A stretch of 36,620 nt of DNA. Source: a virus. The stretch covers positions 1 to 36,620 of IMG/VR virus record IMGVR_UViG_3300022935_000057; one strand, given 5' to 3'. How positions within the stretch are numbered: position 1 is the first letter of the stretch; every line of letters starts with the position of its first letter. Shown piece after piece: positions 1-33,454 of this stretch. Position numbers and translations under genes: made by a program. Below the pieces are notes generated by a model. It ran no database searches and was not told the DNA's origin. It saw nothing but the letters and a program-made list of their open reading frames with translations.

Positions 1-1528
1 CGTCAGTTGCATCTTCTTCATTAATTGTAGTAGAGATTGTAGAATCTATTAAGTCACTAGAGTCTAAATTTGGTGTTAAGACAACATCTTCTAGTTCGTC
101 AGTACTAATATTTGGTAATGTAGTTGCAAACTCTCTAACTAGTCTTTCTAAAACTTCGATTGACTCGTCTGTCGTAAGTCTATTTAATTCTTCTATAATA
201 TCAGGTGTTATAAGATCAAGTTGTTTTAATTCATTTATTAAATCTTCTTCAGTAAGATTTTTTTCTCTCAATTCTTCTACTAAAACTTCAGCAACAATTG
301 TTTTTTCTAACAACTCTTCGTCTTGTTTTAAAAACTCTAAAACCTGTTTTTGTAGTTCTTCTCTTAGAGAATCTTCTGTTTTTATTAGTTCTTGACCGAC
401 AAGTTCCTCTACAAATTCTCCTATATTTGTATCTAATAAAAATTCTCTAACTGTAAGTTCGTTTAAATTTATTTCATTAATATTAGATTTTTCTAATTCT
501 TCAAAGAAGAATTGTCCAAAAGTCTGTTCAACTAATGTTAATTCTTCTTTTTCTAAATTGCCCAACTCTACAATGTCGGTTTCTTCTGTGACAAGTTTTT
601 CTATGATAGAAAGAACTTCCCTATCAATAAATGAATCTAAAACATTTACTGCTGCCTTTTCTAATTCTTCTATAAAAATACTTTGTTTAGTTTCTATTAT
701 ATCTGCTATTTCGTTTATTGCAGTTTCTTTGAATTCAGATACAATATTATCTATAATTTGTTCTGGTAAATCTTTTACAAAATCTCTTAAAACATCATCC
801 GATAAGATTGCAGTTTTTATTTCTTCTTCTACTAAAGAAGTTTCTATTATCTCAGCGAGAGCCTCTGTGCTTATAAGTTCTGTAAGTTCTGTGACTCTTG
901 TTTGATTATCAAATAAATCTGAAATATCTCTAGTGCTTATAAGATCAGACTCAGATTCTGCAACAACGGCCTTTACCGACTGTGTTATAGACTCTATCAA
1001 ACTTGTTTTTATTTTTGCAGCGACATCAGCTATTGTTTCTGTGCTGGGTAATGTATCTGCAACTTCAGTTTCTGGTGCGGGTTCTTGTGATAATTGAGAA
1101 TCTGCGACTTGATCTTCTGGCACTTCAACCTGAACTATGACAACGGGCAAAGTTTCTCTTACCTGTTCGTAACTTTCTGAATCGGATGATAATGTAGAAG
1201 ATACTTCTGTGGGCAAACTTGCAGTATTAAATAAAGAAACGTGCCATTCCATTGCAATTGCGCCGGCGACAGTATAGTTATAAACTGAAGTTTGATCGAT
1301 TGTTGGATTTGTTACTTTTAGTTGAATAGTGTCACCATTATTAAATGATGCAGAATTTCCAACATCAATCCCATTTTTAATAATGGTTCCAGTGTTAAAA
1401 GTAACATTAACTGGTTGTGAACTTAAATCTGTAACAGTTACTATTTCTGAAAAGAGCTCACTTGGACTCGTGAGTCCAGAGCTCATTTCAACATAGTCTG
1501 GTATAAAGAAACTGTCTATGAGTGCCAT
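1..1528 (-). CDS. Partial gene: Ig-like N-terminus plus long acidic helical region, unknown function
   Basis: The reading frame starts with ATG at 1528 and stays open for 509 codons to the left edge, so the 3' end is missing. The start is supported by a Shine-Dalgarno GAGGGGG at 1534-1540, five bases upstream. Residues about 17-100 look like a small beta-sandwich with the pattern 'VTVTDLSSQPVNVTF...NNGDTIQLKV', similar in style to Ig/CalX-like repeats in phage fibres. A Pro/Glu-rich linker follows (about 130-165). Residues about 165-509 are predicted helical, rich in Glu, Leu, Ile and Asp, almost free of Gly and Pro, with amphipathic blocks such as FIEELEKAAVNVLDSF. There is no cysteine in the visible part. 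I do not recognise the family. Its place after three peripheral baseplate or fibre paralogues suggests a virion protein, but that is inference. A terminator separates it from the gene before, so it probably uses its own promoter. Confidence 0.85.
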   Translation of the reverse strand, partial: MALIDSFFIPDYVEMSSGLTSPSELFSEIVTVTDLSSQPVNVTFNTGTIIKNGIDVGNSASFNNGDTIQLKVTNPTIDQTSVYNYTVAGAIAMEWHVSLFNTASLPTEVSSTLSSDSESYEQVRETLPVVIVQVEVPEDQVADSQLSQEPAPETEVADTLPSTETIADVAAKIKTSLIESITQSVKAVVAESESDLISTRDISDLFDNQTRVTELTELISTEALAEIIETSLVEEEIKTAILSDDVLRDFVKDLPEQIIDNIVSEFKETAINEIADIIETKQSIFIEELEKAAVNVLDSFIDREVLSIIEKLVTEETDIVELGNLEKEELTLVEQTFGQFFFEELEKSNINEINLNELTVREFLLDTNIGEFVEELVGQELIKTEDSLREELQKQVLEFLKQDEELLEKTIVAEVLVEELREKNLTEEDLINELKQLDLITPDIIEELNRLTTDESIEVLERLVREFATTLPNISTDELEDVVLTPNLDSSDLIDSTISTTINEEDATD

Positions 1529-1597: not shown

Positions 1598-4500
1598 TTA
1601 AGAAACGTCTGGGGGAATGAAATCACTGTATTCTGGTCTGATAGAACCACCTCTTACTAAAAGCATAATTCTCATCCCATTACCATATGGTAGCGTTGAA
1701 TGCATACCAAGATAGGTTCTTTCAGAAGAAGTTGTTGCAGAATTTGTTCCGGTGTGCCAAGTATATGGAAAACGGAAATTCAATTCTTCAGAACTATTGG
1801 TTCCTGTGCCGGCTGTGTCTCCAGTTACCGAAGAGCTCTGCACACTATCCAAATCATACTTTGCGTTGTTGGCACCAACATTAACAAAACCTCCCATAGT
1901 ACTTGCATCTGCTGATGTATAACAAATCAAATCCATTTCATCTTCTGGGTAGATATATCTCTGACTTGTCATTGGGGTTGGAAAGAAAGTAACCAAAGTT
2001 TTTCTATCTGTTAGTGCAAGTTGTTCGTATGGATTAATAATAGCAGGACTATCCACTTGTGGAATAATAGCCGACACATGTTTGTCCCAAGGTTTTAATA
2101 CATCTTGTTCCCTGATACAGAATCTATAAATCGCTTTAGACTCGTTGTGTGGATTCATCCAAGATGCCGGAATATCTGGGTCCGATGGCAATTCAATCAG
2201 ATATTGAGATGTTGCATTAGGATCAATGGCATAATTCTCATATGCAATAGTTACTACTTGAGAATTTGCAATTTCATCTCTAACGTATAGATGATCCGTT
2301 TGCAACATATATGCATAAACATTTTGTTCGTTTCCAAAAACGGGTATTTGAGTAAACTGTGGAACACCATCAGAATCTACAATATATTCTTCAGGAGCAA
2401 CCGCAGCGTTTATTTCAACATTACTGACATATACACTCAACAAACTCGTATTTTCAAGAGGACCCGTCCCATCACCACTTCTGCCAACTGGATTGATATA
2501 TCTATTTTGATATCCCGCACCTTTCCATCTATAATTAACTAAAACTTTTGGTTTTTGTCTGGCGATGGTGCCGCCAGACGTGTTGAGCGGATCATAAGAC
2601 CAATCTGTATCTGTGTCATTAATTTCGTGAATAACTAATTGTCTTAACGAATTATTAACTGGATTTTCTACAGGATGCAAAAACTTAATGCCAAATCTTT
2701 TTACTGGATAGGTTTCACCCCTAAATGTATTTGTAAAATTATCAATTGCTTGTACTTCTAATTCCCAATGCACACCCCTTTCCAATTCAACATAGTCTTG
2801 GAATTTATATTCGGAGTGCCATCTTGCCAAATAAATAGATTCAATTTCCAACCCTTGGCCCGCTGGTCCCAATCCCCATTGATATGCAGTATTAAAATTA
2901 ACTAGTTCTGTATAATCTACCCCAAGATATGCAATATCGGGTGCTTGGGAGGAGATCGTCGGATCCTTGGTAGTAGCAATAGTAGGAAAATCTGACACAT
3001 GAGCTGCCGTAATATAATCTGTGCCAACGGTAAATCCGGGCGAAGTAAGAGAACCAACCTCCGATAAATTGGTATTTGCAACCAAATAATTGTTAAAGTT
3101 TCCAAAAGTTGTGCCAGTTGTAGTTGCAAATATTCTATCTTTATCTGTTATAATACTTGAAACTACTCTATCGGTAGATTTTAACTGTCTACCATCAATA
3201 TCATAAATATCACCTAATTGATCATATTGTAGGTTAACTTGACCGGTAATTGAATTTACAGTTTTACTCCAATTTTGATACAATGCAATATTGGTATTAG
3301 AGGCCTCGACAGCTCTTTTACTTGGCGAATAAACGCAGTGTATAGGAGATTTTCCTTCTTCCAATTCTATTTTACCAGATGTATTATTTACATGTCTTTG
3401 TATTACAAACCATGCATAGTCATCATCTTGATCTACAGATGCATGATCCCACATAAACAAACCAAGACCGTGGTCTGTGACAGTAAGTCTATATTTTACA
3501 GGATATGTTGGAGTAATTAGAGGGTCATCTTTGCCTGCACGTCTGAACCAACCAGAGCGAGACTTTCTAAAGCCATCACTACTATCATAAAAAATATCAC
3601 ATAACTCGCCAGGCCGTCTAAAAGTTGGTCCTTTGATACCATCACGACCTTGTGTACTACTTAAAGTTCCATTATCTGAAATTTGATATTTTGTGCCAGC
3701 AAAAACATTAATTTCATCTTTTTGTTCATTATATTCAAACATCAATCTCCATTTTTGTGGAGCTCTACCCTCCAACCAAGCAGAAGATGCAACCAGATCT
3801 GTTGGAACTGTAATTCCTGAAGGTATAATATCTTTTTTTGAAGAAAGAATATCAACACCTTTTTCGGATTCTACAATAAATCTCGATCCAATTCTACGAA
3901 TACAATTCATTACATCAGACTGATTTTGTTGACCATTTTCATCAATTACTGGATAAGAATTTGCGTCTGGACTTGAATATGGATAAATGATATTGAACGA
4001 TTGTTGTTCTATTTCTTCTTCTGGAATAGACATTCTCCAACTATTTGCGGCATAACGAACTCCAGAAATCATATCTGGTTCTAAATTATTTTCATCTTGT
4101 GTAAATGGTGTTAAAATTGTCCCGAATGCAATTGTACCATCGTTAGAAATAGATTCAATACGAACTTCACCTCTGCCATATTCTTGGATGATTCTTTTCT
4201 GCAAATCATCAGACGAGAAAACTGCATCAGTACCTGTTATTTTAACATTCACTGATGAGTTGGTTTGATTTGACGCATACGAAACTACGATTGTTCCGTT
4301 TTTCATTTTTGAATCAGACCAATCATATGTGTAATGATTTGCATAAGGATGTAAAGTTAAATCCATTGCTAATTGTTTTAAAACGCCATCTTCATAATTA
4401 CTATAATACTGTGTTTTGGTAAAATAATCTAATATAAGTCGATCATTTGGATTTGGAATCGAAGCATTATTCAATGTAATTGAACCATATGGCGCTACTG

Positions 4501-5185
4501 ACGGAACAATTATAATAATGTTATCAGTTCCTGTAGATGGAGTATTATAAAATGTTATGTTTTGGCCATTTACCAAATAGTCATTATTGATTTGTAATAA
4601 ACTACCATCTACATAAATTTCTAAATCTCTAGGATCAGATATAGTCGAAACTACAGTAAATATAGTTGTTCCGAGTTTTCTAACATTTATTGTTGAACCT
4701 ACTGATGGAGCTGTATTAAATGTAATTTCATTATTACTAACACCACCAATTGTATAATCTGTGCCATGAGTTTGCAAAGAACCATCAATAGAAACTTGGT
4801 CGGTTGTTGATGGAGTAAAATTCGTCACCGTAAAATTAGTTATGGTTCCATCACCAGAAAAAGCTTGCGTCAGATCACCAACACCATCAAAAGACTCTCT
4901 GACAGCAGGAGATGGAGGCGTGTAATAAAACTGCCCTCCATTACTAAAACTATTGTCTCCTTCTAAATTATCTAGTAACAATATCTGACCTGTCTGATCG
5001 ATCTTTGCTCGAATTACCAAAGTATTTGTTAATTCCGTATCTACATGTCTAGAAAGTGAATATGATGTTGTAGAACCATCACTTACAAAGTATTCTCTAA
5101 ACATGGGTTGTTGCATAGAAATGAGTTCTATTCTAGATATGGAAAACCCACTGCTTTTGTATTTTGAGTCTAAACTATTAGCCAT
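1598..5185 (-). CDS. Large virion structural protein, paralogue C (1195 aa)
   Basis: This is the third of three tandem paralogues. The N-terminus ('SSGFSISRIELI', residues 11-22) and the segment around residues 266-280 (DGVLKQLAMDLTLHP) match the 1551-residue neighbour. Residues about 109-169 and 172-228 are two copies of a small beta module with the pattern 'VDG...DY.V.G..I.F...P'. The shared core runs from about 440 (ESEKGVDILS, APQKWRLMFEY, RPGELCDIFYD, GWFRRAGK at about 543) to PIHCVYSPSKR at about 615. The shared C-terminal domain is 1021-1195 (REQDVLKPWD, TSQRYIYPEDEMDLIC, GMHSTLPYGNGMRI). The family resembles unnamed structural proteins of marine T4-like phages. A peripheral baseplate or fibre-attachment role is inference from position. 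The start ATG follows 'AAAGGCAAAATTAA'. A strong terminator follows the stop. Confidence 0.9.
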   Translation of the reverse strand: MANSLDSKYKSSGFSISRIELISMQQPMFREYFVSDGSTTSYSLSRHVDTELTNTLVIRAKIDQTGQILLLDNLEGDNSFSNGGQFYYTPPSPAVRESFDGVGDLTQAFSGDGTITNFTVTNFTPSTTDQVSIDGSLQTHGTDYTIGGVSNNEITFNTAPSVGSTINVRKLGTTIFTVVSTISDPRDLEIYVDGSLLQINNDYLVNGQNITFYNTPSTGTDNIIIIVPSVAPYGSITLNNASIPNPNDRLILDYFTKTQYYSNYEDGVLKQLAMDLTLHPYANHYTYDWSDSKMKNGTIVVSYASNQTNSSVNVKITGTDAVFSSDDLQKRIIQEYGRGEVRIESISNDGTIAFGTILTPFTQDENNLEPDMISGVRYAANSWRMSIPEEEIEQQSFNIIYPYSSPDANSYPVIDENGQQNQSDVMNCIRRIGSRFIVESEKGVDILSSKKDIIPSGITVPTDLVASSAWLEGRAPQKWRLMFEYNEQKDEINVFAGTKYQISDNGTLSSTQGRDGIKGPTFRRPGELCDIFYDSSDGFRKSRSGWFRRAGKDDPLITPTYPVKYRLTVTDHGLGLFMWDHASVDQDDDYAWFVIQRHVNNTSGKIELEEGKSPIHCVYSPSKRAVEASNTNIALYQNWSKTVNSITGQVNLQYDQLGDIYDIDGRQLKSTDRVVSSIITDKDRIFATTTGTTFGNFNNYLVANTNLSEVGSLTSPGFTVGTDYITAAHVSDFPTIATTKDPTISSQAPDIAYLGVDYTELVNFNTAYQWGLGPAGQGLEIESIYLARWHSEYKFQDYVELERGVHWELEVQAIDNFTNTFRGETYPVKRFGIKFLHPVENPVNNSLRQLVIHEINDTDTDWSYDPLNTSGGTIARQKPKVLVNYRWKGAGYQNRYINPVGRSGDGTGPLENTSLLSVYVSNVEINAAVAPEEYIVDSDGVPQFTQIPVFGNEQNVYAYMLQTDHLYVRDEIANSQVVTIAYENYAIDPNATSQYLIELPSDPDIPASWMNPHNESKAIYRFCIREQDVLKPWDKHVSAIIPQVDSPAIINPYEQLALTDRKTLVTFFPTPMTSQRYIYPEDEMDLICYTSADASTMGGFVNVGANNAKYDLDSVQSSSVTGDTAGTGTNSSEELNFRFPYTWHTGTNSATTSSERTYLGMHSTLPYGNGMRIMLLVRGGSIRPEYSDFIPPDVS

Positions 5186-5213
5186 TTAATTTTGCCTTTA
5201 TTCGTTTTAGTAT

Positions 5214-5221
5214 TATTTATT
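5214..5221 (-). promoter_or_regulatory. Possible T4-type late promoter (-10 box AATAAATA)
   Basis: The minus strand reads AATAAATA, one mismatch from TATAAATA, about 28 bases before the ATG at 5185. It overlaps the stop codon of the upstream 1551-residue gene (TAATAAATA). Position fits a promoter for paralogue C, but the match is imperfect. Confidence 0.35.
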
Positions 5222-8200
5222 ACGCAGGCGATGCACCTTCTACAACATCTGTCCATTTAATACTACTTCCAGAAACTTGTAAGAATACTCTCATACCATT
5301 TCCATTTGGCATAGTACTCATCATACCCTCATATTTTCTCTTGTTTCTTTTCCAGAAATAAGTATCACCAGTTGGTCCAACATGGCCACCCCATTCAAAG
5401 TCATCTCCGGCATCATTTGGACTTGGGTCAATATCAATACCATCAATATTTAAGACATTTCCACTCAAACCATTAGAATCTTGATACTTGTCAATCTCAA
5501 TAGAACCAGACTGAGTTGAGAAATCAGCAGAAGAAATACAAATCAAATCTAATTCACTTCTTGGATAATAGAATCTTTGTGATGTAAGTTGTGTTGGGAA
5601 TGAGAATACAAAATCTCTATCCTGTGTAATTGACAACTGTTCTTGCGGATTAATAACCGCATGAGAATCAACTTCGTGCATTGTAGCGGAAACATGGTAA
5701 TCCCAAGGTTTCAACACATCCTGTTCTCTTACAACAAATCTATTAATAGTTTTTTCCTTGTTTTGATTTCTTTCTGGGAAATCTCTATCAGCAGGACTAG
5801 TAATATAATATGAGTTTCTAGCTGGATCACTATAAACATAGTTAATTAATTTTATAATTAATTCAGAACTATGTCTTGGAGCAGTTCTAAAGAATAATGT
5901 TTGATTGAAGAAATCGTAAATATATCTTTGTCTGTCATCCCCACTTGAAAAGACTGGGTCTCCAGGCAGTTTACCTGTCAATACACTTGTTGCAGTAATA
6001 GTAGACTTTATTAAATGATTTCTTGCATCATGGTCAGCACTATCTGCCTCAAGAATTGTTCCCTCGTTGCCGTAATATTTTACAGCCAACCATCCAAGAA
6101 CTTGATTTGTCGATTGTTGCCTATATGTATTCTGTGGATCTATGTATTTGAAAAACCTATCATACAATTCAACTGATAAATGCACACTATATGTGTCGTT
6201 TGTAGTATCATTTCTATATGTTTGTGTTGCACCAGAACCAGTACTAGGATCGAAATCAATACGATTTTCCAGACCAAGAATAATATTGACAATTTCTTGT
6301 GGAATAATAAGGTGTTCTACTTCTACAGGCGTATCTGGAGCTCCATCTACAGTTCTTAATTCAGTAACAGTTTCTGTAAATGCGGGAAGTCTAAAATATC
6401 TACCAAGTTCATTAACTCCAGCAGCATCAAGAGACTGAATAAAGCGGCCGCAGGCCTGAGGATCGCCACTTCTTACCCACTCATCATATTGAAGTATATA
6501 TCCTTTAGTGTCTCTTTCAAGTTCCTCACCATCAACAGCAACAACCATTGATTCCATAACTTTTTCCATATTCTGAACATTTTCATTGTAAAGAATATCA
6601 AGTAATGCATATGATGGGTCACTCCATTCACCAAGTGATGCACCAGTTACTGAGTCATTAATCGCAGTATTATTTGCAGCAGCCGCTTGGAAAGATGAAA
6701 CTCTTTCAATTCTATTTGTAGGGAATACAACATTACCAGAATAATGTGGTGCAAGAGTTGCGTCAACCAACCAAATAGAACCGTCAGCAACTGCGTTGGA
6801 GTTGTTTTGCGCGCTTCCGCCAGGAGGAGTAACTTGTTGTCCGTCCCTTGGCAAAGTCTCAAATCCAACAATTTGAAGATCATTAACCTTTGATCTATTT
6901 TCAACAAGTTGTCCAGAAGCAATCTTAACCGTTATAGTAGTAGTACTAGGGTCAATTGGTTGGCTTTGATTTATTCTTTGACTAATAGGATTTAAAGAAC
7001 CTGTGCCGCCAAAAAATGTAATAAATTTTGCTTGTCTGTCTATAATATAATCTTCACCCGCAACCAATGTTAATGTGTTACCTGCGTTTGGGATGTCTTT
7101 ATATGTGACCACAATTTCTCTATCACCTAAATCATAATTGTCTGTCCAAAAATCCCAAAGCGGAAATGAACTAGGATCGGGAAATGCGGGATCATGCTGT
7201 CCGCCAAAATCTCCAATCACTTCTGGATTGCCATTAACTGGAACTAATTGGGTCAACAATGCAACATTCTGTTTAGATCTTAGAGCGTCAACACTAGAAC
7301 TACCTGGCGCTGTTTCCCACGTAGCTAACGACCAGTAATCAGTTGTGTTAGTAGTGGCACCACCAATAATCCCTCTATCCAACTCCTGTTTAACACCCTG
7401 ATTAAGATTTTGAACATTTGTTGCACTCAAAAGACCTGCCGTATAACCATATCCTGTAAAATCTAATGCATTTGTATATCCATTAAATACTGGTGTTGCA
7501 CCAGTTGCACTTATATACATTGTTGGACCTTCTGTTTCTAGCATTTGTCCCAATGATGTGTAAATATTTGGAGATTTTGTCAAATCATTTACATCAGACG
7601 AAGAATAATACTGATTTAGGTCAGAAATGTCTACTGGACGTTTGGCAGGAGAATACACGCAATGTACTGGAGACTTTTGTGTAAACTCTGGTTGTCCTGT
7701 TGTTTGATCAACGTGTCTTTGAACAACAAACCATGAGTAATCATCGTCTTGATCTACAGAAGCCTGATCCCAAAGAAACAATCCCATTCCATGATCGGTA
7801 ACTGTTATTCTGTATGACATTGGATAAGTTCTAGAAATATTATCTTCAGTTTTTCCAGATCTTCTAAACCAGTGTGACTTTGCCTTTACCATTTCATAAC
7901 CAATTGTTCTACCAGTATTTGGTTCTAAGTATACATCACACAATTCTCCTGGCTCTCTATAAATTGGAGATTTAATACCATCTCTAGTTTGACCAGATGA
8001 TACAGACATATCATCTAACAATTGATATTCAGTTGCCACATTAACTTTAATTGACTGTAGTTTACGATCCCACTCAAATCTAATTCTCCATTTTTGTGGT
8101 CGTCTTTGACTTTGCACCTGATAATATTCTGGAATCAGATTATCATCAGATAATAGATCGACTCCTTTTGTAGACTCCACCAAAAACGAATCCGTGATAT

Positions 8201-9875
8201 CTCTAAGTGCTGCCTTAACAGCTGTTGGAGTATTTGAAACTGGTTTTGGATAAATTAAGTTAAATCCCGGCTGGAATTTTTCATTTTCTTCATAGAAGAG
8301 CATAAACGCATCACTATTTTTTACCTTAGTCAACTCCAAAAGTGCTGTATGAGATTCACTAGATGTAAATTGAAGGGTATAGTCTCCAGTAACCGTTGCA
8401 GCAACATCTAATTGTAATGTCGCAGTTGGCCAATAGCCAGGAACATTTGTGCCTGTTCCAGTATTTACATTACCACTAACAACGACTCCATCTGGGTCCA
8501 AAATAACAAATTGATCGTTGTGATTAATTGTGATTGCGCTACCAGTAACATTACTACTTACATCACCCTGCACAAAACCAAATTTAATAACCTCTCTTCT
8601 ATCTCTTAAAGTTTCGGAGTAATATGTATTAATCTGATAATGGTTTGGATCGTTCAGATCAGTTGAACTTACATCAATTTCAATATACCCAGTATTATCG
8701 GTTGTACCAAAGGGATTTGTCGTAGGATCGGATTTTGGTGGTTGATGGCGAATAACAGATACTGCTACGTCATCCAAAGTTGTTGCTTCAGATTTTAACG
8801 CATTTGTTAAATCATAATCTTCACTATCAAGAGCCTCTTGTATTGGTCCATATCCTAGTTTTCCGATCATAGCTCCATAAGGAACATCCAAAGAATGTTT
8901 CCAAATATACGAAATTTCAACATCAACATCAGAACGATCTAACACCCATCCCCAAGTTTTGGCACTTTCTAAGAAAATTCTAAATCTACTTGTTCTATTA
9001 ACTCTGTCAGAAGAAACAGACCACGCAGAATCTGGAATCACTTTACCATCAACAGCGATTCTAAATTCTCCGTCACCTAAGTCATTGAGGGTTAATGGAA
9101 AATTACCAATATATAAATCTGTTTCGTCTACACCAGTAGCTGGCGTAAATGAATGATTTTTAAATGTAAAACTAAATTCTTTTACACTTCTAAAAATTTT
9201 AGAACCAATTCTTGCACTTTCCAATTGATCCGTAAATGCATAATCTTGTTCTACACCAAATTTATTATCTAGTCCATATACTGTAGTGTATTGATCAATT
9301 TCTGCTGGCAATATATTCGCTGCAGGAACAAACGCAGAATGATCTGTTTTAAGTACATAATTTGCCTTTTCGGGAATATTTCTAAAAACTTCTGGAGTTT
9401 CGAATGGATGCACTGTTAAGTCTTTTGCAAGTTGATATAAAAGTCCACCATCAGTTCCTGTCCAATTATCTTCTGATTCTTGATAACCAATAGTTACTTT
9501 TTCACCAGAAACTGGCGCAGTTTGCGGTAAAAATTCCAAAGCTCCATGTTCGCCTATGTTAGTAATATATCGAACAACACCCAAACCAGCGTCCAAAGAG
9601 CCTTCGGTATAGGTATTTGCTTGCCAATTATTAAATTCTATCAATGGTGATTGTGTAGAATCTGCGAGCAAGTTGTTGCCGGTGTTTCTGTTCAGAGCGA
9701 TTCTTATTTCTCCAATTTTAATTTCCCAAACCCAAGTTTTATCTTGAAAATCTGGTTTTGAGCGCAGAACATAAATCGTATTTGAACCAATAGCAGTATG
9801 TGTTTCCACATTCTGTCTATGAGGAATATCTATAATCTCTGTTCTTTGTATGCTATACCCACTTGAGAGCGCCAT
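5220..9875 (-). CDS. Large virion structural protein, paralogue B (1551 aa)
   Basis: This is the largest of the three tandem paralogues. It shares with paralogue C the N-terminus ('SSGYSIQRTEII', residues 4-15), the block 'GGLLYQLAKDLTVHPF' (about 143-158), and the long core about 530-750: FNLIYP, ESTKGVDLLS, RRPQKWRIRFEW, REPGELCDVYL, SHWFRRSGK, 'TVTDHGMGLFLWDQASVDQD' and SPVHCVYSPAKRPVD. The C-terminal domain shared by all three is 1379-1551 (REQDVLKPWD, TSQRFYYPRSELDLIC, MMSTMPNGNGMRV). Two regions are private to it: about 160-530, and about 750-1378, the latter holding another 'DY...ITF' beta module near 915-990. The start ATG at 9875 has a strong AGAGGAGA Shine-Dalgarno (9881-9888, spacing five). 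A consensus late promoter lies upstream at 9913-9920. The role, probably peripheral baseplate or fibre, is inferred from position only. Confidence 0.9.
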   Translation of the reverse strand: MALSSGYSIQRTEIIDIPHRQNVETHTAIGSNTIYVLRSKPDFQDKTWVWEIKIGEIRIALNRNTGNNLLADSTQSPLIEFNNWQANTYTEGSLDAGLGVVRYITNIGEHGALEFLPQTAPVSGEKVTIGYQESEDNWTGTDGGLLYQLAKDLTVHPFETPEVFRNIPEKANYVLKTDHSAFVPAANILPAEIDQYTTVYGLDNKFGVEQDYAFTDQLESARIGSKIFRSVKEFSFTFKNHSFTPATGVDETDLYIGNFPLTLNDLGDGEFRIAVDGKVIPDSAWSVSSDRVNRTSRFRIFLESAKTWGWVLDRSDVDVEISYIWKHSLDVPYGAMIGKLGYGPIQEALDSEDYDLTNALKSEATTLDDVAVSVIRHQPPKSDPTTNPFGTTDNTGYIEIDVSSTDLNDPNHYQINTYYSETLRDRREVIKFGFVQGDVSSNVTGSAITINHNDQFVILDPDGVVVSGNVNTGTGTNVPGYWPTATLQLDVAATVTGDYTLQFTSSESHTALLELTKVKNSDAFMLFYEENEKFQPGFNLIYPKPVSNTPTAVKAALRDITDSFLVESTKGVDLLSDDNLIPEYYQVQSQRRPQKWRIRFEWDRKLQSIKVNVATEYQLLDDMSVSSGQTRDGIKSPIYREPGELCDVYLEPNTGRTIGYEMVKAKSHWFRRSGKTEDNISRTYPMSYRITVTDHGMGLFLWDQASVDQDDDYSWFVVQRHVDQTTGQPEFTQKSPVHCVYSPAKRPVDISDLNQYYSSSDVNDLTKSPNIYTSLGQMLETEGPTMYISATGATPVFNGYTNALDFTGYGYTAGLLSATNVQNLNQGVKQELDRGIIGGATTNTTDYWSLATWETAPGSSSVDALRSKQNVALLTQLVPVNGNPEVIGDFGGQHDPAFPDPSSFPLWDFWTDNYDLGDREIVVTYKDIPNAGNTLTLVAGEDYIIDRQAKFITFFGGTGSLNPISQRINQSQPIDPSTTTITVKIASGQLVENRSKVNDLQIVGFETLPRDGQQVTPPGGSAQNNSNAVADGSIWLVDATLAPHYSGNVVFPTNRIERVSSFQAAAANNTAINDSVTGASLGEWSDPSYALLDILYNENVQNMEKVMESMVVAVDGEELERDTKGYILQYDEWVRSGDPQACGRFIQSLDAAGVNELGRYFRLPAFTETVTELRTVDGAPDTPVEVEHLIIPQEIVNIILGLENRIDFDPSTGSGATQTYRNDTTNDTYSVHLSVELYDRFFKYIDPQNTYRQQSTNQVLGWLAVKYYGNEGTILEADSADHDARNHLIKSTITATSVLTGKLPGDPVFSSGDDRQRYIYDFFNQTLFFRTAPRHSSELIIKLINYVYSDPARNSYYITSPADRDFPERNQNKEKTINRFVVREQDVLKPWDYHVSATMHEVDSHAVINPQEQLSITQDRDFVFSFPTQLTSQRFYYPRSELDLICISSADFSTQSGSIEIDKYQDSNGLSGNVLNIDGIDIDPSPNDAGDDFEWGGHVGPTGDTYFWKRNKRKYEGMMSTMPNGNGMRVFLQVSGSSIKWTDVVEGASPA

Positions 9876-9912
9876 TATTTTCTCCTCTAAGCCTTTTTTA
9901 GTTACTTAATTC

Positions 9913-9920
9913 TATTTATA
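9913..9920 (-). promoter_or_regulatory. T4-type late promoter (-10 box TATAAATA)
   Basis: Exact TATAAATA on the minus strand, in the 64-base gap between paralogues A and B. A start site about six bases downstream would give a leader of roughly 30 bases containing the AGAGGAGA ribosome-binding site of the gene at 9875. T4-like phages read such boxes with a gp55-type sigma factor and the gp45 clamp. Confidence 0.65.
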
Positions 9921-9939
9921 AAAAAACAATACACATTAT

Positions 9940-11880
9940 TTAAATATTAATATCACTATTATAGATATTTTGGGCCTGCACCAAGCACATAACTCTCATT
10001 CCATTTCCATTGGGTAGAGTTGACCTTATACCTTGATATCTTCTATAATCTATGTTTGTACCATCGTATTTGTATGTTTGCATTGGGACATTACTACTTT
10101 CCGCGACAACTTCAGCAGACGAGAAACAAATCAAGTCCATTTCTTCTTTAGGATACATGTACCTTTGACTGGTAAGTCCTGTAGGAAATGTAATTACAAA
10201 TCTGTTATCGTCCGTAATTGCAAGTTGTTCTTGCGGATTTATAATTGCATTACTATCTGTCTGGTGTTTTGTAGCTCGTTTGTGTGCGTCCCAAGGTTTC
10301 AATATATCCATTTCTCTAATAACAAATCTCCATATTTTTTTCTCTAAAAATTCATCTGCGAGATAGTCTTCTCTATCATAAGGATTTAAAATGTATAGTG
10401 AATCTGTTAACTCAGAAACATTATAACTATTTCCTTGTGGATCGTATATCGGCCCCAATTCGTTGTCTACTGTTTGTAAGTTTGCAGCAGATTCTGAAAA
10501 ATAAACCCCAAAATCTCTAGGCGTTATTCCTTCTCTAGAACATGAATAAATGCAGTGTACAGGAAAACGACTGGCCTCATCAGTTCTTGGCAATCCAGTT
10601 TCGTTATTAACTGTTCTTTGACAACAAATCCATGCATAGTTATCATTTTCATCTACGCCAGCTTCATTATATAATGCTAAGAAAAATCCTCTTTCTGTAA
10701 GAGTGACTCTATATGTTATTGGATATGTGCCGGCAACATTTGGATTTGCATCAGACGCAAGTGGAAATCTTTTAAACCATCCAGGCCCTTTTCGTTTATT
10801 TCTAAATCTAACAGAACGGGAATCAGAAGCAGGTTTGGTAACAACAATAACTGCACCATCAGCTGGGGCCACAGTAAAAGTTATATTATTTCCACTAACT
10901 GTATAATCTACTGCAAGAGTTTTAGTTGTTCCATCTACAACAACCGTATCTGTATTTGCAAATGCTGGAATTTGTGTTATTGTAAATAGAGTTGTTTCCC
11001 CATCGCCCACAAATTGTTCTGATTGCGCCGTGGCAACCCAAGTAATATCTTCGTGATTGATATCTACAATTTCCCCAGGCAATCTAGAGACAGCTGTATT
11101 AATTGTTAATCCATTTTCGAGTGTAATTAATCCATCATTATAAGATAAATTATCTGACGTATTACCATCAATAAAAATTTGATTTTTAGTTCCAGTTTGA
11201 ATTTTTAACCATGTGTATGCTGGATTTGGAATACCAATACTATTTTCCCAACCTGTATTTAACAAAACATTAATTTGGTTATATCCTATATGTGCTGGAA
11301 ATGCTTGCGCAAACTCTGTGTCATCTATTGTATTTCCAGTGACATATTCTACACCACCAATTTCTCTCAATTTAATATTTAATTGGTATAGTTCGTAGGC
11401 AAATTCTTTGTCTTCAGCATACAACCTTGGTCTTTCGTCGTATTCCATTCTCATTCTATATTTTTGATCTACACCTCTGGTTACTGTTCCTTGATTTGGT
11501 GACATATAATCAGATGTTTCCAGAATCACCACATGCTGTAATTTTATTCCGGCTCTAGGAGAAGAAGGTGCGTCTACTCCAAAGTTTGCTGTACCAGAAT
11601 AATCCAATCCAGCGCTTGGATCCCCAATTTCTGTAAAAAAGTTTCTGGTTATATCGTTACCAGTGACTGCATCTACAAGTTTATTCGATTGCTCAGGAAC
11701 ACCATCCCACATTTGCCAAGATCTTATCAAATCTTGTCTAAGAGTATCTAACAAGCCAGCATTATCAATTGGGGCCCCACTACTAGAAAACCCGCCTGGT
11801 CCCTCAATTTTAGTAAGACCTACTCTTATAGTTGATGCCCCATAATGTTTAAATGTATTTAAATCTATCGGTGTCGTCAT
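9940..11880 (-). CDS. Virion structural protein, paralogue A (646 aa)
   Basis: This is the shortest and first-transcribed of three tandem paralogues. Residues 1-285 are largely its own ('RQDLIRSWQMWDGVPE', 'QHVVILETSDYMSPNQG'). Residues 289-350 form a beta module with the pattern 'FVGDGETTLFTI...VVVDG...DYTVSGNNITFTVAP'. The core shared with B and C is residues 367-450 (GWFKRF, TYPITYRVTLTERG, VDENDNYAWICCQR, FPVHCIYSCSRE). The shared C-terminal domain is 518-635 (RFVIREMDILKPWD, SNAIINPQEQLAI, TSQRYMYPKEEMDLIC, STLPNGNGMRV). Compared with B and C it lacks the long insertion between core and C-terminus (only about 65 residues there). This may be the closest to the ancestral form, but that is inference. 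It sits 46 bases after the 196-residue gene, with late-promoter-like boxes in the gap. Confidence 0.9.
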   Translation of the reverse strand: MTTPIDLNTFKHYGASTIRVGLTKIEGPGGFSSSGAPIDNAGLLDTLRQDLIRSWQMWDGVPEQSNKLVDAVTGNDITRNFFTEIGDPSAGLDYSGTANFGVDAPSSPRAGIKLQHVVILETSDYMSPNQGTVTRGVDQKYRMRMEYDERPRLYAEDKEFAYELYQLNIKLREIGGVEYVTGNTIDDTEFAQAFPAHIGYNQINVLLNTGWENSIGIPNPAYTWLKIQTGTKNQIFIDGNTSDNLSYNDGLITLENGLTINTAVSRLPGEIVDINHEDITWVATAQSEQFVGDGETTLFTITQIPAFANTDTVVVDGTTKTLAVDYTVSGNNITFTVAPADGAVIVVTKPASDSRSVRFRNKRKGPGWFKRFPLASDANPNVAGTYPITYRVTLTERGFFLALYNEAGVDENDNYAWICCQRTVNNETGLPRTDEASRFPVHCIYSCSREGITPRDFGVYFSESAANLQTVDNELGPIYDPQGNSYNVSELTDSLYILNPYDREDYLADEFLEKKIWRFVIREMDILKPWDAHKRATKHQTDSNAIINPQEQLAITDDNRFVITFPTGLTSQRYMYPKEEMDLICFSSAEVVAESSNVPMQTYKYDGTNIDYRRYQGIRSTLPNGNGMRVMCLVQAQNIYNSDINI

Positions 11881-11925: not shown

Positions 11926-12507
11926 TCAGCCTTCTATTCCATAAAATCCAATTTTAACTGCAATATCATATAAACCAGAACCATTGGGTATAAATTCTTC
12001 ATCATCTGAAAATGCCAATACTGCTATTTGATGGTCAGATAATTGTGGTATGAAAAAACTAGAAACTATTTCTCCCCCAACTGTCCCATCATCTTTTTCC
12101 AATGCCGCGCCAATCTCTTCGTTTACAAAAAGATTATTAGCCCAAGTTTGCGAATCTTCCATCAAAAAATAACCAATTGTGTAAAATCCATTTGTTTTAA
12201 ATTTTAAATCTACATTAATTGTAGTTAAAGCGATTGGACATTCATTTGGATCTATGCCTAAATCTATTAGACTTTGATTTGTCACAAGTGGGCCACGAAA
12301 TGCAACATCTCTAATTGGCGTATAAAGCGCTGGTTGCAATGTTGAATGATAACTCTTTAACATTACATTTGCATTAATGTTTGTCCCATATATAGTGCCA
12401 GCTGATACTGATTGAGTGGCATTTTCAAGACCCTGCAACCTAACAGAATAAACAAAATTATCTTCTTGATTTGAACTTGTCCAAGGACTTGTCACTATAG
12501 TATCCAT
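11926..12507 (-). CDS. Small virion-region protein of unknown function (193 aa)
   Basis: I do not recognise the family. I prefer the ATG at 12507, which shares its A with the TAA stop of the preceding gene (TAATG), over an in-frame GTG at 12516 that would add MEI. GGTGGAG just upstream acts as ribosome-binding site, so translation is probably coupled to the PA14-type protein. The protein has short strands ('NFVYSVRLQGLENATQSVS', 'TTINVDLKFKTNGFYTIGYF', GLYDIAVKIGFYGIEG), no membrane segment, no signal peptide and one cysteine. This is consistent with a compact beta-rich accessory or chaperone-like partner of the upstream protein, but the function is unknown. Confidence 0.8.
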   Translation of the reverse strand: MDTIVTSPWTSSNQEDNFVYSVRLQGLENATQSVSAGTIYGTNINANVMLKSYHSTLQPALYTPIRDVAFRGPLVTNQSLIDLGIDPNECPIALTTINVDLKFKTNGFYTIGYFLMEDSQTWANNLFVNEEIGAALEKDDGTVGGEIVSSFFIPQLSDHQIAVLAFSDDEEFIPNGSGLYDIAVKIGFYGIEG

Positions 12508-14552
12508 TATCTCCACCCACTTCCTCTATGTTTAATTGTATAATATGTCATATCATAAGAAGAATGCTGACGGGAAACACCGTCCGGTCCAGTGACATAA
12601 AAATCAAACTTATTTTTGTCTCTCCACTCATAATATGCGATCCAAATCGGATAGTATTTATCTTTAGTGAGATAAACATTACCACTTGTGTTACATTTGT
12701 AACGACGGTTTCCAAGATACCCCGTCACTTTATTACTATCAGTCGATTGTCCAAATCCTTTATCTTTACCACCATGAACTGCGTGTCTACCAAGCCAAAT
12801 AGCAGAACCATCATCCGAACATACTGTAAATTTAAAATGTCCAGTTTGTTTCGGAACAAAAAATCCTCTCCATTCATAAGTGTCAAGCAGCAAACGAGTG
12901 CCACCTCTGTCTATTTGTATTTTCCCAGTTCTGGTTGCCGTATAGGTTCCACCAACACCAAATCCAGAAGGGCCCCCATAGCTAAGTCTTAAATTTCCTG
13001 TGTCGTGATAATACTCCAAAAATCCATTTCCATATGTTGGTAAATCTTGAATATAGTTTCTCAATATATCACCAACTTTTGGTTTATCTCCATCATAGTA
13101 AAGAGTTTTTCCATTGTCACCAGTTATTTTCCAATCTCTTGTGCCAACCGAGTCAACATCAACTTTTGCAACTCGACTTCTACCATCATATCGATCAACT
13201 TCAACAATTGAATCGCCTATCATTTCTGGTTCACTAAAAGTTGTTAAATTTCTTGCAATTGAAGTGTCTGTAGTAAAGTGTGGATAAACCTTTTTCCAAG
13301 AACCATTTTCCTTTACCCAAATATCTTTAGGTTCTTTCCAAACATTACTGTCTTTTACAAATATTTCTTTGGGAACCCACCATTTTGCTGTGCCATCATC
13401 TATTGACATTGGACTATCAATTGGTGACTTTATTGTTTGTGGCTTAATCAATGAAATTATATTTCTGTCGAACGTTGTACCCTTTACTGACAATCTGTAC
13501 CATTTATAAGTAGAAGGAGTTTCGAGTTTTGCACTTACATATAAATTACTATCTATATCTAGTCCACCATCGCCATACAAATCATTAAATGTCCCATCGG
13601 TATTAAAAGTGAAGTGAAATTTTCTTTTCTGTTTTATAGTTTTTTCTATTTCTTTGTAAGTCGTAACATTTGAAATTCCAAATCTATGTTTTTGTCTTTC
13701 TGGACCATTTGGTTTGTTATATCTAAACTGTAAAATATGTTGTCCTGTTAAATGTTTAACTTTAAATTTATAATTAGTCCATACAGTATCAGAATCAGAA
13801 TTTAAAGTAATTTTCAGCAGTTTTTGCGCACCTTCGGCCAATTCGACATTATCATCCAAACCACGAACATCTACTATCAATGTTTCGTCACTGAGGGGCG
13901 TTTTTCCTCCGTTTGAATTATTACCAACAATTGCCCAAAACTCAATATAATCACTATCTGTCAAATCTAATGGTAAAGGAAATATTCCACCACCAGCCGA
14001 TGATGCAGACTCACCCCAATTATCTGGAGAAAATGATCTATATCCTGTTATTTTATCAAATTCCGAATTACTTGGTTTTGCAAAATCACCACCATCTCCC
14101 GATCCATTTCCAAAATTGTGTCTGCGCACATCAAGTTTTTGATTGTATGTTTTTCTTGAATAACTCGAAGGTATCGAACCGGAACCAATTCTTCCAACCT
14201 CATACCAAGGTCCGTTAAAATCTACCGCACCTTCGAGTTTAACTATATCTTCTTTTGCGCCAAATGCCTCTGTCCAATCAACGTCCACTCTAATTGCTAG
14301 GTTATTATCAGAATCTTTGTATGAGTGGTTTGGACCAATAGAAAATGGTGGTGTGTAAACTCTCTGAGGAATATTGACTAAACTTTGTAAGAGATTACCT
14401 TCTGGCGGATAAACTTCTCGCAGATCTTCATATAATCTAGATTCTTCTCTTGGCAAACCTATAGCCTTTTTTCTATCCCAACGCAAATTTATATTTGTCG
14501 AGATTTCAGTTGAAGTTTGAGAGATTGTATCGTCTTTGATTAGTAATGGCAT
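12507..14552 (-). CDS. Fibre/adhesin-like structural protein with C-terminal PA14-like domain (681 aa)
   Basis: Three parts are visible. Residues about 1-370 are beta-rich with no family I can name. Residues about 387-425 carry tandem 'KEIFVKDSNVWKEPKDIWV'-type repeats (VKD/VKE...W K), a motif seen in many phage fibre proteins. Residues about 525-675 resemble a PA14 domain: WRGFFVPKQTGHFKFTV, SDDGSAIWLG near residue 575, then GNVYLTKDKYYPIWIAYYEW and the closing KFDFYVTGPDG. PA14 domains in other proteins bind sugars or mediate surface contact, so a host-surface role is likely but inferred. Its stop overlaps the start of the small downstream gene (TAATG). Ten bases separate it from the upstream 295-residue fibre-like gene, suggesting one transcript. 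Confidence 0.88.
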   Translation of the reverse strand: MPLLIKDDTISQTSTEISTNINLRWDRKKAIGLPREESRLYEDLREVYPPEGNLLQSLVNIPQRVYTPPFSIGPNHSYKDSDNNLAIRVDVDWTEAFGAKEDIVKLEGAVDFNGPWYEVGRIGSGSIPSSYSRKTYNQKLDVRRHNFGNGSGDGGDFAKPSNSEFDKITGYRSFSPDNWGESASSAGGGIFPLPLDLTDSDYIEFWAIVGNNSNGGKTPLSDETLIVDVRGLDDNVELAEGAQKLLKITLNSDSDTVWTNYKFKVKHLTGQHILQFRYNKPNGPERQKHRFGISNVTTYKEIEKTIKQKRKFHFTFNTDGTFNDLYGDGGLDIDSNLYVSAKLETPSTYKWYRLSVKGTTFDRNIISLIKPQTIKSPIDSPMSIDDGTAKWWVPKEIFVKDSNVWKEPKDIWVKENGSWKKVYPHFTTDTSIARNLTTFSEPEMIGDSIVEVDRYDGRSRVAKVDVDSVGTRDWKITGDNGKTLYYDGDKPKVGDILRNYIQDLPTYGNGFLEYYHDTGNLRLSYGGPSGFGVGGTYTATRTGKIQIDRGGTRLLLDTYEWRGFFVPKQTGHFKFTVCSDDGSAIWLGRHAVHGGKDKGFGQSTDSNKVTGYLGNRRYKCNTSGNVYLTKDKYYPIWIAYYEWRDKNKFDFYVTGPDGVSRQHSSYDMTYYTIKHRGSGWR

Positions 14553-24670: not shown

Positions 24671-27600
24671 CTAAATTTGTTCAAGAGAATTTAACTCATT
24701 CCAAGTAGTAGGAGCACTGGAATATGCCGTTGTAATAGATTCGTGAGCTATGTTGGTTTTAATGTTTGATTTATTTTCAATATTTTCGATTGTTTCTAAA
24801 TACAACTCATTATCGATGCTCTGTGGAGTTTGATTGAATTTCATTCTCTCCACAGAATTATAATTCATACCACTATTTAATCTATTGTTAGGGTCTTTTG
24901 GTGTAGTTACTCGCATAATTTTTGGATAAACATTAATCTCAGAATCTAAGTTTATATTTTGACCACGATCGTATGAATCTACAATCTGGCCCCAAATCAT
25001 TTCATAGAATTCGTGCGACTCTAGACTTGAATATGGATTTCTAGATGTTACATAACCATATTCTTCTTCACCATTTGGGTTTTGTTGAACTCTCACAATA
25101 CCAGCAAGAGTTTTCTTTTGTGGGTGTAATTCTGCCTCATCTTCACTACTAAATCTATATCTGACTAATTTTTCGAAAGGAATTTCTCTGTCAAATCTGA
25201 ATTTAATTCTATCCAAACTTCTATACTGATTACTCAATGATGGAACTTCTTCACCAATAGAATCTATCATAATTACGAATTTTTCATCTCTTGGATCCGC
25301 ACCATCTCTAATCGCACCAACCCAATATCTATTGACTCTTTCAACATTTCCCCTAAAAACCTTGTCCCATCTAAATTCGACTTTATCGCCAGGGGTCGCA
25401 CTCAGAGAACATACACCAAAACTTGTTAAATGTGTAACTTCAAATTCTACATATAAATCATTTTCGTAATGTGTGGTGTCAATCACTTTGAATTTTGCAA
25501 ATGGTCTAGTTGTTTCATCTGTAATATCTATATCATAAATTGTGAAGTTTCTCTGTACAGTATTTTCTGTATAAAATTTAGTCAAGTCAAGTCCATTTTC
25601 ATCTCTTACATTTACAAGGACATATTTTATTTCACTCCAATTTGATGCTGTTGGAATTGGATCTCTATTAACATCTAAAAGTTTATATCTACCATCTCCA
25701 GTATCAACTGTTTGTCCCACAGGCGTGTCGTCACCTACACCAGACATTGGGCCCCCTGTTTGATAATTATCGTATACAAAGGTATATCCATGAGAAAGAA
25801 GATCATTAACATTAATAGGCGTCGAGTCTGAGCCTGTCCATCTACCCAAACCATCCATGTTTTTAACACTAACGTCTGCATTTTTTACAATTTCAAACAA
25901 AAACTGCAAATACAGACTTTGTAGCTTTTTAGGTTCGGGGTTTGATATAAGATTCACCTCACCAAACATCATTAACCCTGATGGGTGCAACAATTTCTTT
26001 ACGATATAACGCCACTGATCGATATTTCTGGAAGTTCTCAATACATAAGAATAATCCTGCCACAAGTAACCATCTTGAATTCTGTTTTCGTCAGACAAAA
26101 ATCCTTTGTCGTTAAAAAAGAATCCATCTCTTTTTAGCAAAGGTCCCAAAATTGGAGTAATTTGCGCGTTACCGTCGCCCAAGGTTGATAAATCTATAGT
26201 GGGCGCAACGGTATATCCAACCCCAAAACCATCAGAAGCAGAATCTGGAGAATTTGTAATTTTAATTTCTGATATAGAACCAATATTACTACCTTTGGGT
26301 TGAAGTATTGCGTTCGTTCCAATAGAATTGTATCCAGATGTAGAATTTGATATCGATGCAAATGGAAATTTTTCATAACCATCACCACCACTATAGACAT
26401 CAATCTTTACTATTGGCCCATGTGGATGATTGATAAAATCCATTTTTACAGTCCAATTATCAGGTACAATAAATGGTTCGGCTGCCAATCCATACTGCGC
26501 GATCTGACTTGAAATTGTTGATGCAAAACTACTGTTGTCTGTCCAATTGTTTACATCAGGTTCTGATGTTAACTTAAATATTACTAATCTGTCATTAACT
26601 ACGTCAAAATAATACTGAGCTGGCCGATTAGTTTCTTTTGTAATATGATATGCACTATAAAAGTTTTGAATTGGATCTAATTCCCAAGATTTAATATATG
26701 TAGTACCAGAAGAAGTATATTCTGTATATCTTTCATCAGAAGTTACTCTAAAAGAACTATAATGGCCTAAATTATAATCGTAATAAGAACCAGACGGACT
26801 TAAAGAACTACCAAGGGTAACTAGATAAGAGTCGAGAGATTCAAACATTGCAGTATATGCATCTTCGCCATTCAATCCATTAAACAAAATATTTGACCAA
26901 GTGGATGCATCTTGACTATGACATGCGTATCCCCATTGTGATGAACCACTAAACAAACTGGCCCAAGAATAACCATCATCAACCAATTCCGAAAGACTGA
27001 ATGTAAATTCAGTATTTACATCTATGTTACTATTATCAGTTTCTACTGAAGTTGTAAATTGAGAAACCGAGGTAGTAAATGTGTCTCCATTTCTTATTGC
27101 TCTTAGTCTACTATAAAGTCCTGCCCAACCTCCAGACTGCGCGGGCGCAAGAGAATTACCATTAAACACCACCACTTGATCCGCCTGCAAATAGTTATAG
27201 ACAACTTGATATCCCCCCGTATTCAACATACCACCTTGAGCTCTTAGTAGAGATAATGTATGTTCTTTACCATCATCATCAATTACAAACGCAATAACTA
27301 AACCAATAGTATCATCGTCCGTAGAGGTTGAAGAAATTGTAGCAGAAAAATCGTATTCAGAAAACTTTTCAGATTCTAATGAATAAAAACCAACATATGT
27401 GCTTGTGTTTGCTGTACAAACAATTGTATCATTAGCGGAATTATAAACAAAAGCCGTTGTTTCGCCCGCATTTGCTGGATAAGTTCCACTAGAATTGTGC
27501 GAAAATCTATTCCATGTATTAAAAACGGTTTGTCTGGTTGGTGCAGATTGGATAAACCCACCAGCAAGAATTTTTCTTTCACCGTTTATATGCAATTTTA

Positions 27601-31907: not shown

Positions 31908-33422
31908 CTATGGATTTAAATCTATTTTTGGTGCTTTGATTGTGTGGTTGCCACCGGAAGTTATATCTATTTTGCCACCGACACCTGTAGTTGATTTTTT
32001 ACCAACTACTAAATTAAAGTTTCCTTCGACCACTATAGTTAAATTACCACCAACATGTAAATTTTTATTACCCATAACTAAATCAAAACCATCTCCAACT
32101 GTTTTAGAAACCTTTTTCCCGTCTGGATGATATTCTTCAAAAGAACCAGATCTGTGATAAGTATGAATTCTTTCTGCGCCTGGAGTATCGTCAATTTCTA
32201 ATACATGGCCTGTAGGAGTCCTTATCGCTTGATTATATGGATAAACGGCGGCATAAGGAGATTCTGGCTCAGTAAATTTAGAATTACTGACAAGTTCATT
32301 TTTTGTTTCTGAACATTCGGATTGTGGTTCATCCGGCAAACCACATCTTGTGGGCAAATCAGAATCTGCTGTTTGCGTAGGAGTTTGTGAACTATTAGTA
32401 CTATTAACAGTACGATTGCCAGATTGATTATTAGTATTTACACTTTGACTTATTTCATTAGAAATACTATTCATTGATCTTTGATTTCTTTGATCAATAA
32501 CATCATCTGGTGATAACGCTGCAGCTGGGGTTCCTGTTGGGTCAGACAAAAACATCGCCCTCTCTTCCTGTCTTCTAGTTGCCAATGCATCAATAGTTTG
32601 TCCACTTGCCTTATTGTATAGTAACATTTTGTTTGCAATGGTTTCATTGTCTCTTGTACCATTATTAGTCAATTGGTCAAGTCCGCCGGGCCCAAGATTA
32701 TACGCAAAGGAAGTTAGAGCATCTCTTTGTCTTTCGTTCCAAGTGTAACCGTATTGTTTTTCTTTTTCCAAAACATATCCTCTATATTTTGCTATATTTT
32801 GTGATAATCTAGCTTCGGCCTCTTGCTCATCAATCACTTCGCCCGGATAATTTGCCTTTGTACCATAACCAATTGAGTGTTGTTTATGATCCCAATATGA
32901 TTTAGAACTATATCCTTCTTTTGCTTTCAAAAAACTTACCAAATCTTTACTCGCTGCATCATTAAAGGTGGTATCGGATATTTGCGAAACTTTTTGTCCA
33001 CTTGGAACAACTCCTGTACCTTGTCCTGTTCCGCCATTAGCAACATCCTTAGAATAATTTCGTAGTGTTTGAGGAACTTCTTCACCTCTACCATTTCTAT
33101 TGATTCCCTCACCCTGACTCCCTTTAGTGCCGGGCAAAGTGCCCCATATTATAGGTTCTTGTGCATACTCACCATCTCTAAAGAAACCGATAACCCAAGA
33201 ATCGGTTCTAACACCAGTTGGACTTTGACCAATTCCACCAACTGACGCACTTGTAATTGGCATAATCGGAAGAGCCCAAGGCAAATCTTCTGTTTCAATG
33301 CCTTCATCATAAAAACCAAAAATTCTTACTTTAACTCTGCCAATTTTCAAAGGATCTTTTTCAAAATCTTCGACAACACCTGTCCACCAAACAAAATTGT
33401 CTTTTCCAATAAAATTTAACAT
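31908..33422 (-). CDS. gp5: Baseplate hub spike protein gp5 with lysozyme domain (504 aa)
   Basis: gp5 forms the trimeric spike that pierces the outer membrane and digests peptidoglycan. Domains in order: OB-fold about 8-98 (NFVWWTGVVEDFEKDPLKIG, GFFRDGEYAQEPIIWGT); linker; lysozyme of the T4/GH24 type about 158-295; C-terminal beta-helix about 385-504 with NKNLHVGGNLTIVVEGNFNL and the end KIDLNP. The lysozyme keeps the catalytic Glu (E169 in KEGY) and Asp (D178), but the third position reads Ser (S183, HSIGYGT), with one residue fewer between Asp and Ser than in T4 lysozyme (E-D-T). T4 gp5 has 575 aa. An exact late promoter is at 33441-33448, and AAAGGA precedes the ATG. Confidence 0.95.
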   Translation of the reverse strand: MLNFIGKDNFVWWTGVVEDFEKDPLKIGRVKVRIFGFYDEGIETEDLPWALPIMPITSASVGGIGQSPTGVRTDSWVIGFFRDGEYAQEPIIWGTLPGTKGSQGEGINRNGRGEEVPQTLRNYSKDVANGGTGQGTGVVPSGQKVSQISDTTFNDAASKDLVSFLKAKEGYSSKSYWDHKQHSIGYGTKANYPGEVIDEQEAEARLSQNIAKYRGYVLEKEKQYGYTWNERQRDALTSFAYNLGPGGLDQLTNNGTRDNETIANKMLLYNKASGQTIDALATRRQEERAMFLSDPTGTPAAALSPDDVIDQRNQRSMNSISNEISQSVNTNNQSGNRTVNSTNSSQTPTQTADSDLPTRCGLPDEPQSECSETKNELVSNSKFTEPESPYAAVYPYNQAIRTPTGHVLEIDDTPGAERIHTYHRSGSFEEYHPDGKKVSKTVGDGFDLVMGNKNLHVGGNLTIVVEGNFNLVVGKKSTTGVGGKIDITSGGNHTIKAPKIDLNP

Positions 33423-33440
33423 AAAAAAATCCTTTTTTAG

Positions 33441-33448
33441 TATTTATA
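33441..33448 (-). promoter_or_regulatory. T4-type late promoter (-10 box TATAAATA)
   Basis: Exact TATAAATA on the minus strand in the 32-base gap between the two gp5-type genes. It would give a short leader of about 12 bases including AAAGGA, and would transcribe gp5, gp25, gp6 and gp7. Confidence 0.6.
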
Positions 33449-33454
33449 ATTAAA

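Follow-up and report, generated by a model that had tools for sequence, protein, structure and literature searches.

Three large paralogous genes

The 36,620-nucleotide sequence studied here, from a marine virus of bacteria (IMG/VR record IMGVR_UViG_3300022935_000057, positions 1 to 36,620; hereafter the window), carries three consecutive genes for very large proteins, which we call A, B and C and which belong to a phage protein family with a single, insertion-bearing fold. All three reading frames were confirmed on the minus strand, at 9940-11880 (A, 646 amino acids), 5220-9875 (B, 1551 amino acids) and 1598-5185 (C, 1195 amino acids), exactly the sizes given in a preliminary description made from the sequence alone. 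That description regarded the three as paralogues with a common core and common C-terminal motifs, and by all-against-all BLASTP their homology is far beyond chance. B and C are 43% identical over 293 amino acids (E 3e-62) and 40% identical over 241 amino acids (3e-40), A and B are 41% identical over 204 (1e-36) and 32% over 139 (2e-20), and A and C are 43% identical over 166 (8e-30) and 32% over 131 (4e-20). None of the other window proteins in the tested set matched A, B or C significantly.

The shared motifs vary slightly among the proteins. The first core motif reads GWFKR in A, HWFRR in B and GWFRR in C, and the second takes the forms VHCIYS (that of A), VHCVYS and IHCVYS. Towards the C terminus, KPWD occurs in all three, and the NGNGMR of A and B becomes YGNGMR in C. 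The spacers between core and C-terminal part measure 64, 629 and 393 residues in A, B and C, close to the 65, 630 and 400 first estimated.

A single fold interrupted by insertions

The three proteins match PHROG 12249 in profile searches (phrog_12249; E 6e-49 for A, 2e-46 for B and 6e-38 for C), and the matches span both conserved parts. Minimal members of this family, found in the jumbo phages Lu11, PaBG, Alexandra, NCTB and Y3, are only 320-400 amino acids long. The core and C-terminal domain, at first taken to be separate units, are halves of one mostly beta fold of about 330 residues, because they are contiguous in these minimal homologues. The family's conserved residues (such as QR, E, N, R-Y, D, SA and GMR) are present in the giants as well. 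The N-terminal similarity that had been noted between B and C corresponds to the strand-helix element that opens the fold; this element is also present in A, and direct BLAST comparison of the B and C N-termini is weak (E 0.2 and 0.003).

With PaBG gp261 as the query, tblastn detected the family in 68 isolate records. Most are jumbo myoviruses belonging to the Lu11/PaBG/Alexandra/Y3/NCTB group; the others are Agrobacterium phage Atu_ph07, Sinorhizobium phage Phosso and two shorter records (Alcaligenes and Salmonella). Most of the records listed have two copies (e.g., Lu11 gp246/gp247 and Alexandra gp153/gp154), PaBG has one (gp261, or gp225 in RefSeq) and NCTB has five (BN7874_241-244 and 246). 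No near DNA relative of the window was found among isolated phages.

AlphaFold2 models PaBG gp261 with high confidence (66 sequences; predicted local distance difference test, pLDDT, 92.4; predicted template modelling score, pTM, 0.92). The model of A is less certain overall (69 sequences; mean pLDDT 72.9, pTM 0.75), with higher values over most of the conserved domain. Fold searches of the PDB with both models gave no significant match and thus no solved counterpart, and neither the family nor alignments of the B and C orthologues retrieved anything convincing from the PDB by sequence; we gave no weight to a weak match between the C insert and a scaffoldin (E 0.016). Weak to moderate matches were found to the predicted folds of A7KUQ3 and A7KUT2-T4, the latter being three proteins with consecutive accessions. 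We take these four to be structural proteins of Bacillus phage 0305phi8-36 and treat the link as a lead only.

A rival possibility is that the paralogues are themselves tail-fibre protomers that stack into lateral arms and bind pili or other receptors, an idea that overlaps with the reading we prefer below. In the siphophage JBD30, the adjacent and similarly folded gp47 and gp48 build three lateral arms, every one composed of three heterodimers, that bind the type IV pilus (PMC11445458), and our model of A weakly matches a gp47 relative from Burkholderia phage KL1 (E 0.12, probability 0.54). Profile comparison of the family with gp47-like and gp48-like proteins gave homology probabilities of only 0.6% and 0.3%, against 98% for gp47 with gp48 as a positive control, and the JBD30 structure (PDB 8RK3) does not rank among the top 50 solved matches to the PaBG gp261 model. 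We consider stacked arms of this kind unlikely.

Virion association and the tail sheath label

The preliminary description was right that no function has been described for these proteins, but the family itself was already known, apparently under a misleading name. PHROG 12249 is called "tail sheath", and RefSeq records such as NC_047995, NC_017972 and NC_022096 bear the same label, which apparently follows PHROG. Apart from these names, the evidence argues against a genuine sheath paralogue. Comparison (hhalign) with the sheaths of the same phages gave a probability of 2.8% over 28 columns, no sheath is among the best 50 fold matches of the PaBG gp261 model, and Alexandra encodes a separate, clear sheath (phrog_23, E 9e-65). 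In PaBG the two sheath proteins are likewise listed separately, as gp213 and gp76 (PMC7412058). A sheath identity, already disfavoured, is thus very improbable, and the label appears to be wrong; correcting it affects many jumbo-phage records.

The same PaBG study ties the family to the virion. Its gp261, a protein of 34,778 Da listed as "Unknown", is one of 14 Coomassie-visible proteins in the virion proteome (PMC7412058), and the GenBank tag PaBG_00261 identifies it as a family member. Since this member is a band in the virion proteome, virion association of the family is supported, through the literature and for PaBG gp261 specifically, and an unexplained virion band can be tied to a widespread family. 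In Atu_ph07, most of the virion proteins detected by mass spectrometry are encoded in three clusters (PMC6102473), and one of these, CDS 284-329, includes the homologues gp321 and gp323, whose position makes them candidate virion proteins.

Alternatively, the family could make up the hair-like appendages seen on "hairy" myoviruses, present in many copies on the tail sheath, in which case the giants would be elongated hairs. The carriers fall largely in the clade of "hairy Myoviridae" (hairiness is reported for Y3, Lu11, the JA phages and AD1), Atu_ph07 is whiskered too (PMC6102473), the PaBG virion contains enough of the product to be visible with Coomassie (PMC7412058), and a sheath gene lies within about 10 kb in several genomes. 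However, hairy RaK2-like phages such as CBB are not among the records matched with PaBG gp261, the Atu_ph07 whiskers are reported to be mainly associated with the capsid (PMC6102473), a compact fold of 330 amino acids makes no obvious hair, and the marine genes sit among baseplate and fibre genes. We regard the hairs as a rather unlikely explanation.

Insertions, duplication and phylogeny

Alignment to the minimal fold places the large insertions of A, B, C and their orthologues at the same few sites, which in gp261 numbering are approximately residues 14-16 (between the first strand and first helix), 37-82, 122, 206 and 298; placement within 37-82 differs between two alignments and is uncertain. 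The site near 122 is used by A and by a fourth paralogue described below, that near 206 lies between the two halves, and that near 298 is occupied in B and C. Aligned in the same way, the end of the N-terminal half of A (GWFKR...VHCIYS) occupies residues 349-448 (10537-10836), and its C-terminal half (KPWD...NGNGMR) residues 513-646 (9943-10344), where identity to orthologues is 77-79%; A is the least inflated member of the giant clade. In B, the conserved core at residues 609-744 (7644-8051) is separated by a 629-residue insert (residues 745-1373; 5757-7643) from a C-terminal half at residues 1374-1551 (5223-5756) that itself contains a 43-residue insert at 1468-1510. The core of C lies at residues 492-622 (3320-3712), followed by a 393-residue insert (residues 623-1015; 2141-3319) and a C-terminal half (residues 1016-1195; 1601-2140) that contains a 40-residue insert. 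All of these segments are encoded on the minus strand.

Orthologues are 56-72% identical in the core and 31-46% identical in the inserts; for B, the 629-residue insert is 32-40% identical, compared with 66-72% for the core. This pattern is as expected if a constrained scaffold carries decorations that are freer to change. A module of about 65 amino acids, weakly similar to the N-terminal domain of the T7 tail fibre, occurs at one site in A (residues 285-352; 10825-11028, minus strand; inserted near residue 122 of the fold) and twice elsewhere in C. The first copy in C lies between the first strand and first helix (residues 107-170; 4676-4867, minus strand; phmmer domain E 2.5e-7), followed by a weaker one (residues 173-221; 4523-4669, minus strand; E 0.002). 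The C module scores 22.0 bits against Pfam PF03906, below the cut-off of 25.2, and the A module also falls short of the Pfam cut-off. A close orthologue of A (in contigs L101 and L105) lacks most of the module, with 12 of 72 insert residues aligning. Since the module occupies different sites in A and C and is mostly missing from this orthologue, it appears to have been gained. The suggestion that duplication was followed by module gain therefore stands, given one 330-residue fold, inserts at fixed sites and this module.

The set was described as one of three, and A, B and C are real, but there are at least four paralogues. A 76-kb contig with identical copies of A, B and C (L121) encodes a further member, E, of 1513 amino acids (L121:6964-11505, minus strand), about 11 kb beyond position 1 of the window and thus outside it. 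Orthologues of E in two other contigs (L122 and L123) are 1346 and 1297 amino acids long. E adjoins tail-fibre-like genes, branches beside A, B and C, and has its largest inserts (more than 900 residues in all) before approximately residue 62 of the fold. The A-B tandem is present in 22 environmental viral contigs, and C is complete wherever the stretch is long enough.

A maximum-likelihood tree resolves A, B and C as three separate clades, with B sister to C and all the giants in a single well-supported group. The Lu11-type pairs, the Alexandra-type pairs and the NCTB set are placed elsewhere, consistent with separate duplications of the gene in the jumbo lineages. Six family members (about 300-650 amino acids) occur in tandem in two viral contigs (among L077, L083, L118 and L119). 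Repeated independent duplication provides a natural series, from one to six copies, for considering how phages elaborate tail appendages.

Gene neighbourhood

The genes for A, B and C lie in a baseplate and appendage region. Upstream are homologues of a tail-tube cap, a wedge protein, a tail protein, gp5 (two genes), gp25, gp6, a large wedge-like protein and gp8, and between gp8 and A are genes for a VrlC-like protein of 2404 amino acids and for proteins of 295, 681 and 196 amino acids, the 681-residue one with a GLEYA/PA14 domain. Downstream of C are gene D (2-1528, minus strand; 509 amino acids in the window and 683 in a longer contig), a 1082-amino-acid protein, a protein with PAAR and CHAP domains and a tail-fibre-like protein. 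In the jumbo phages, phrog_23630 commonly precedes the tandem, tail proteins (phrog_13325/14098) or tail fibres are nearby, and the tandem adjoins a protein of about 1330-1430 amino acids. A short N-terminal stretch of D resembles the 1330-amino-acid protein downstream of the NCTB tandem (E 1.4e-5 over 48 residues), a sequence similarity that hints at shared synteny.

This setting bears on whether the proteins could instead decorate the neck, collar or head, or act as adaptors with no connection to the baseplate. The PaBG result is one of co-purification with virions only (PMC7412058), and the mostly capsid-borne whiskers of Atu_ph07 (PMC6102473) would suit decorations of the head. The marine neighbours are baseplate, PAAR tip and fibre genes, and the jumbo-phage neighbours are tail and fibre genes, which makes a neck or head location improbable; the structure built by the fold is most likely tail-associated.

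Proposed role of the paralogues

We suspect, with moderate confidence, that a heteromeric baseplate or tail-fibre appendage is built from A, B and C as its paralogous components. In this scenario, A, B, C and E would be virion structural proteins of one family, whose minimal members may be the subunit from which jumbo myoviruses make a tail-associated structure. The gene was duplicated to at least four copies in the marine lineage, and each copy gained private modules at a small number of fixed positions in the fold. The conserved fold could dock on the baseplate periphery and on its paralogues to form a heteromeric appendage or fibre platform, and the inserts may form arms, spacers or surfaces that touch tail fibres or the host envelope. 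Because private inserts accompany duplication, the paralogues are suggested to be non-equivalent subunits of one appendage, or parts of several appendages built on one docking fold. The analysis establishes the homology, the single fold, the insert sites, the lineage-wise duplications, the gene order and, for the PaBG homologue, virion association; that the paralogues sit at the baseplate and assemble together, and what their inserts do, we infer.

Several observations weigh against such an appendage. Only one family copy is detectable in PaBG, so heteromerization is no general requirement. HTVC008M and S-SM1, which belong to the T4 superfamily and share the baseplate genes, have no family member among the proteins examined. 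The inserts of orthologues diverge more than the core but are mostly alignable at 30-40% identity and seem less variable than typical receptor-binding tips, and no solved structure shares the fold, so that none places the family in a virion.

A broader and more tentative proposal is that the fold, as yet without a solved structure, is a general scaffold that was duplicated independently (to between one and six paralogues) into heteromeric, lineage-specific appendages, whose size and surface would be tuned by modules at fixed sites, unlike the T4 gp9-gp12 periphery. We consider it possible but doubtful. Isolated phages, among them PaBG, Lu11 and Alexandra, already allow the question to be tested, and the confident gp261 model describes a fold for which no solved counterpart was found.

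Comparison with other phage systems

The jumbo-phage members of PHROG 12249 share with the giants the family, the order of conserved elements and the arrangement as tandem paralogues near tail or fibre genes. They differ in size, A, B, C and E carrying roughly 270 to 1190 extra residues, and the giants are encoded within a T4-like baseplate cluster and branch as a separate clade. The JBD30 proteins gp47 and gp48 are likewise tandem paralogues of similar fold and about minimal size, and their heteromeric appendage serves as a working analogy only: profile homology is undetectable, the JBD30 tail is non-contractile, and its arm genes directly follow the tape measure gene.

The genes were initially placed where T4 has gp9-gp12. 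The approximate map position after gp8 is shared, and a peripheral location is presumed, but neither sequence nor fold revealed a connection with the T4 proteins. No match appeared in PDB sequence or fold searches, which were the only comparison covering gp10-gp12, and gp9 was additionally compared, without a match, through the profile of one cyanophage gp9. The Pelagibacter phage HTVC008M, which has the closest gp6, also encodes related structural genes (I899_gp059 and 062-064) in the slot after gp8 and a VrlC-like protein. These are unrelated repetitive proteins without a family match. The four tail-fibre-like genes follow the VrlC-like gene (L107:32559-41752) and are labelled "baseplate wedge initiator".

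Among cellular genomes, a scan of genome contigs for relatives found only two loci, in two sequenced Pseudoalteromonas genomes; they are related to the six-member tandem arrays and lie on contigs of 128 and 203 kb, the first with gene sizes that match those arrays.

Other features of the baseplate region

Within the region around the paralogues, the PAAR tip protein downstream is fused to a CHAP cell-wall hydrolase (L099:23628-24719), and the GLEYA/PA14 domain of the 681-residue protein between the VrlC-like protein and A (12507-14552) is of a carbohydrate-binding type. The large wedge-like protein (24671-29578; 1635 amino acids) has a laminin-G or lectin-like stretch that scores just below the Pfam cut-off. 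The two gp5-like hub genes are adjacent (31908-34267) and encode proteins of 504 amino acids, with a lysozyme domain, and 270 amino acids, apparently without one; the two are 67% identical across 91 N-terminal residues.

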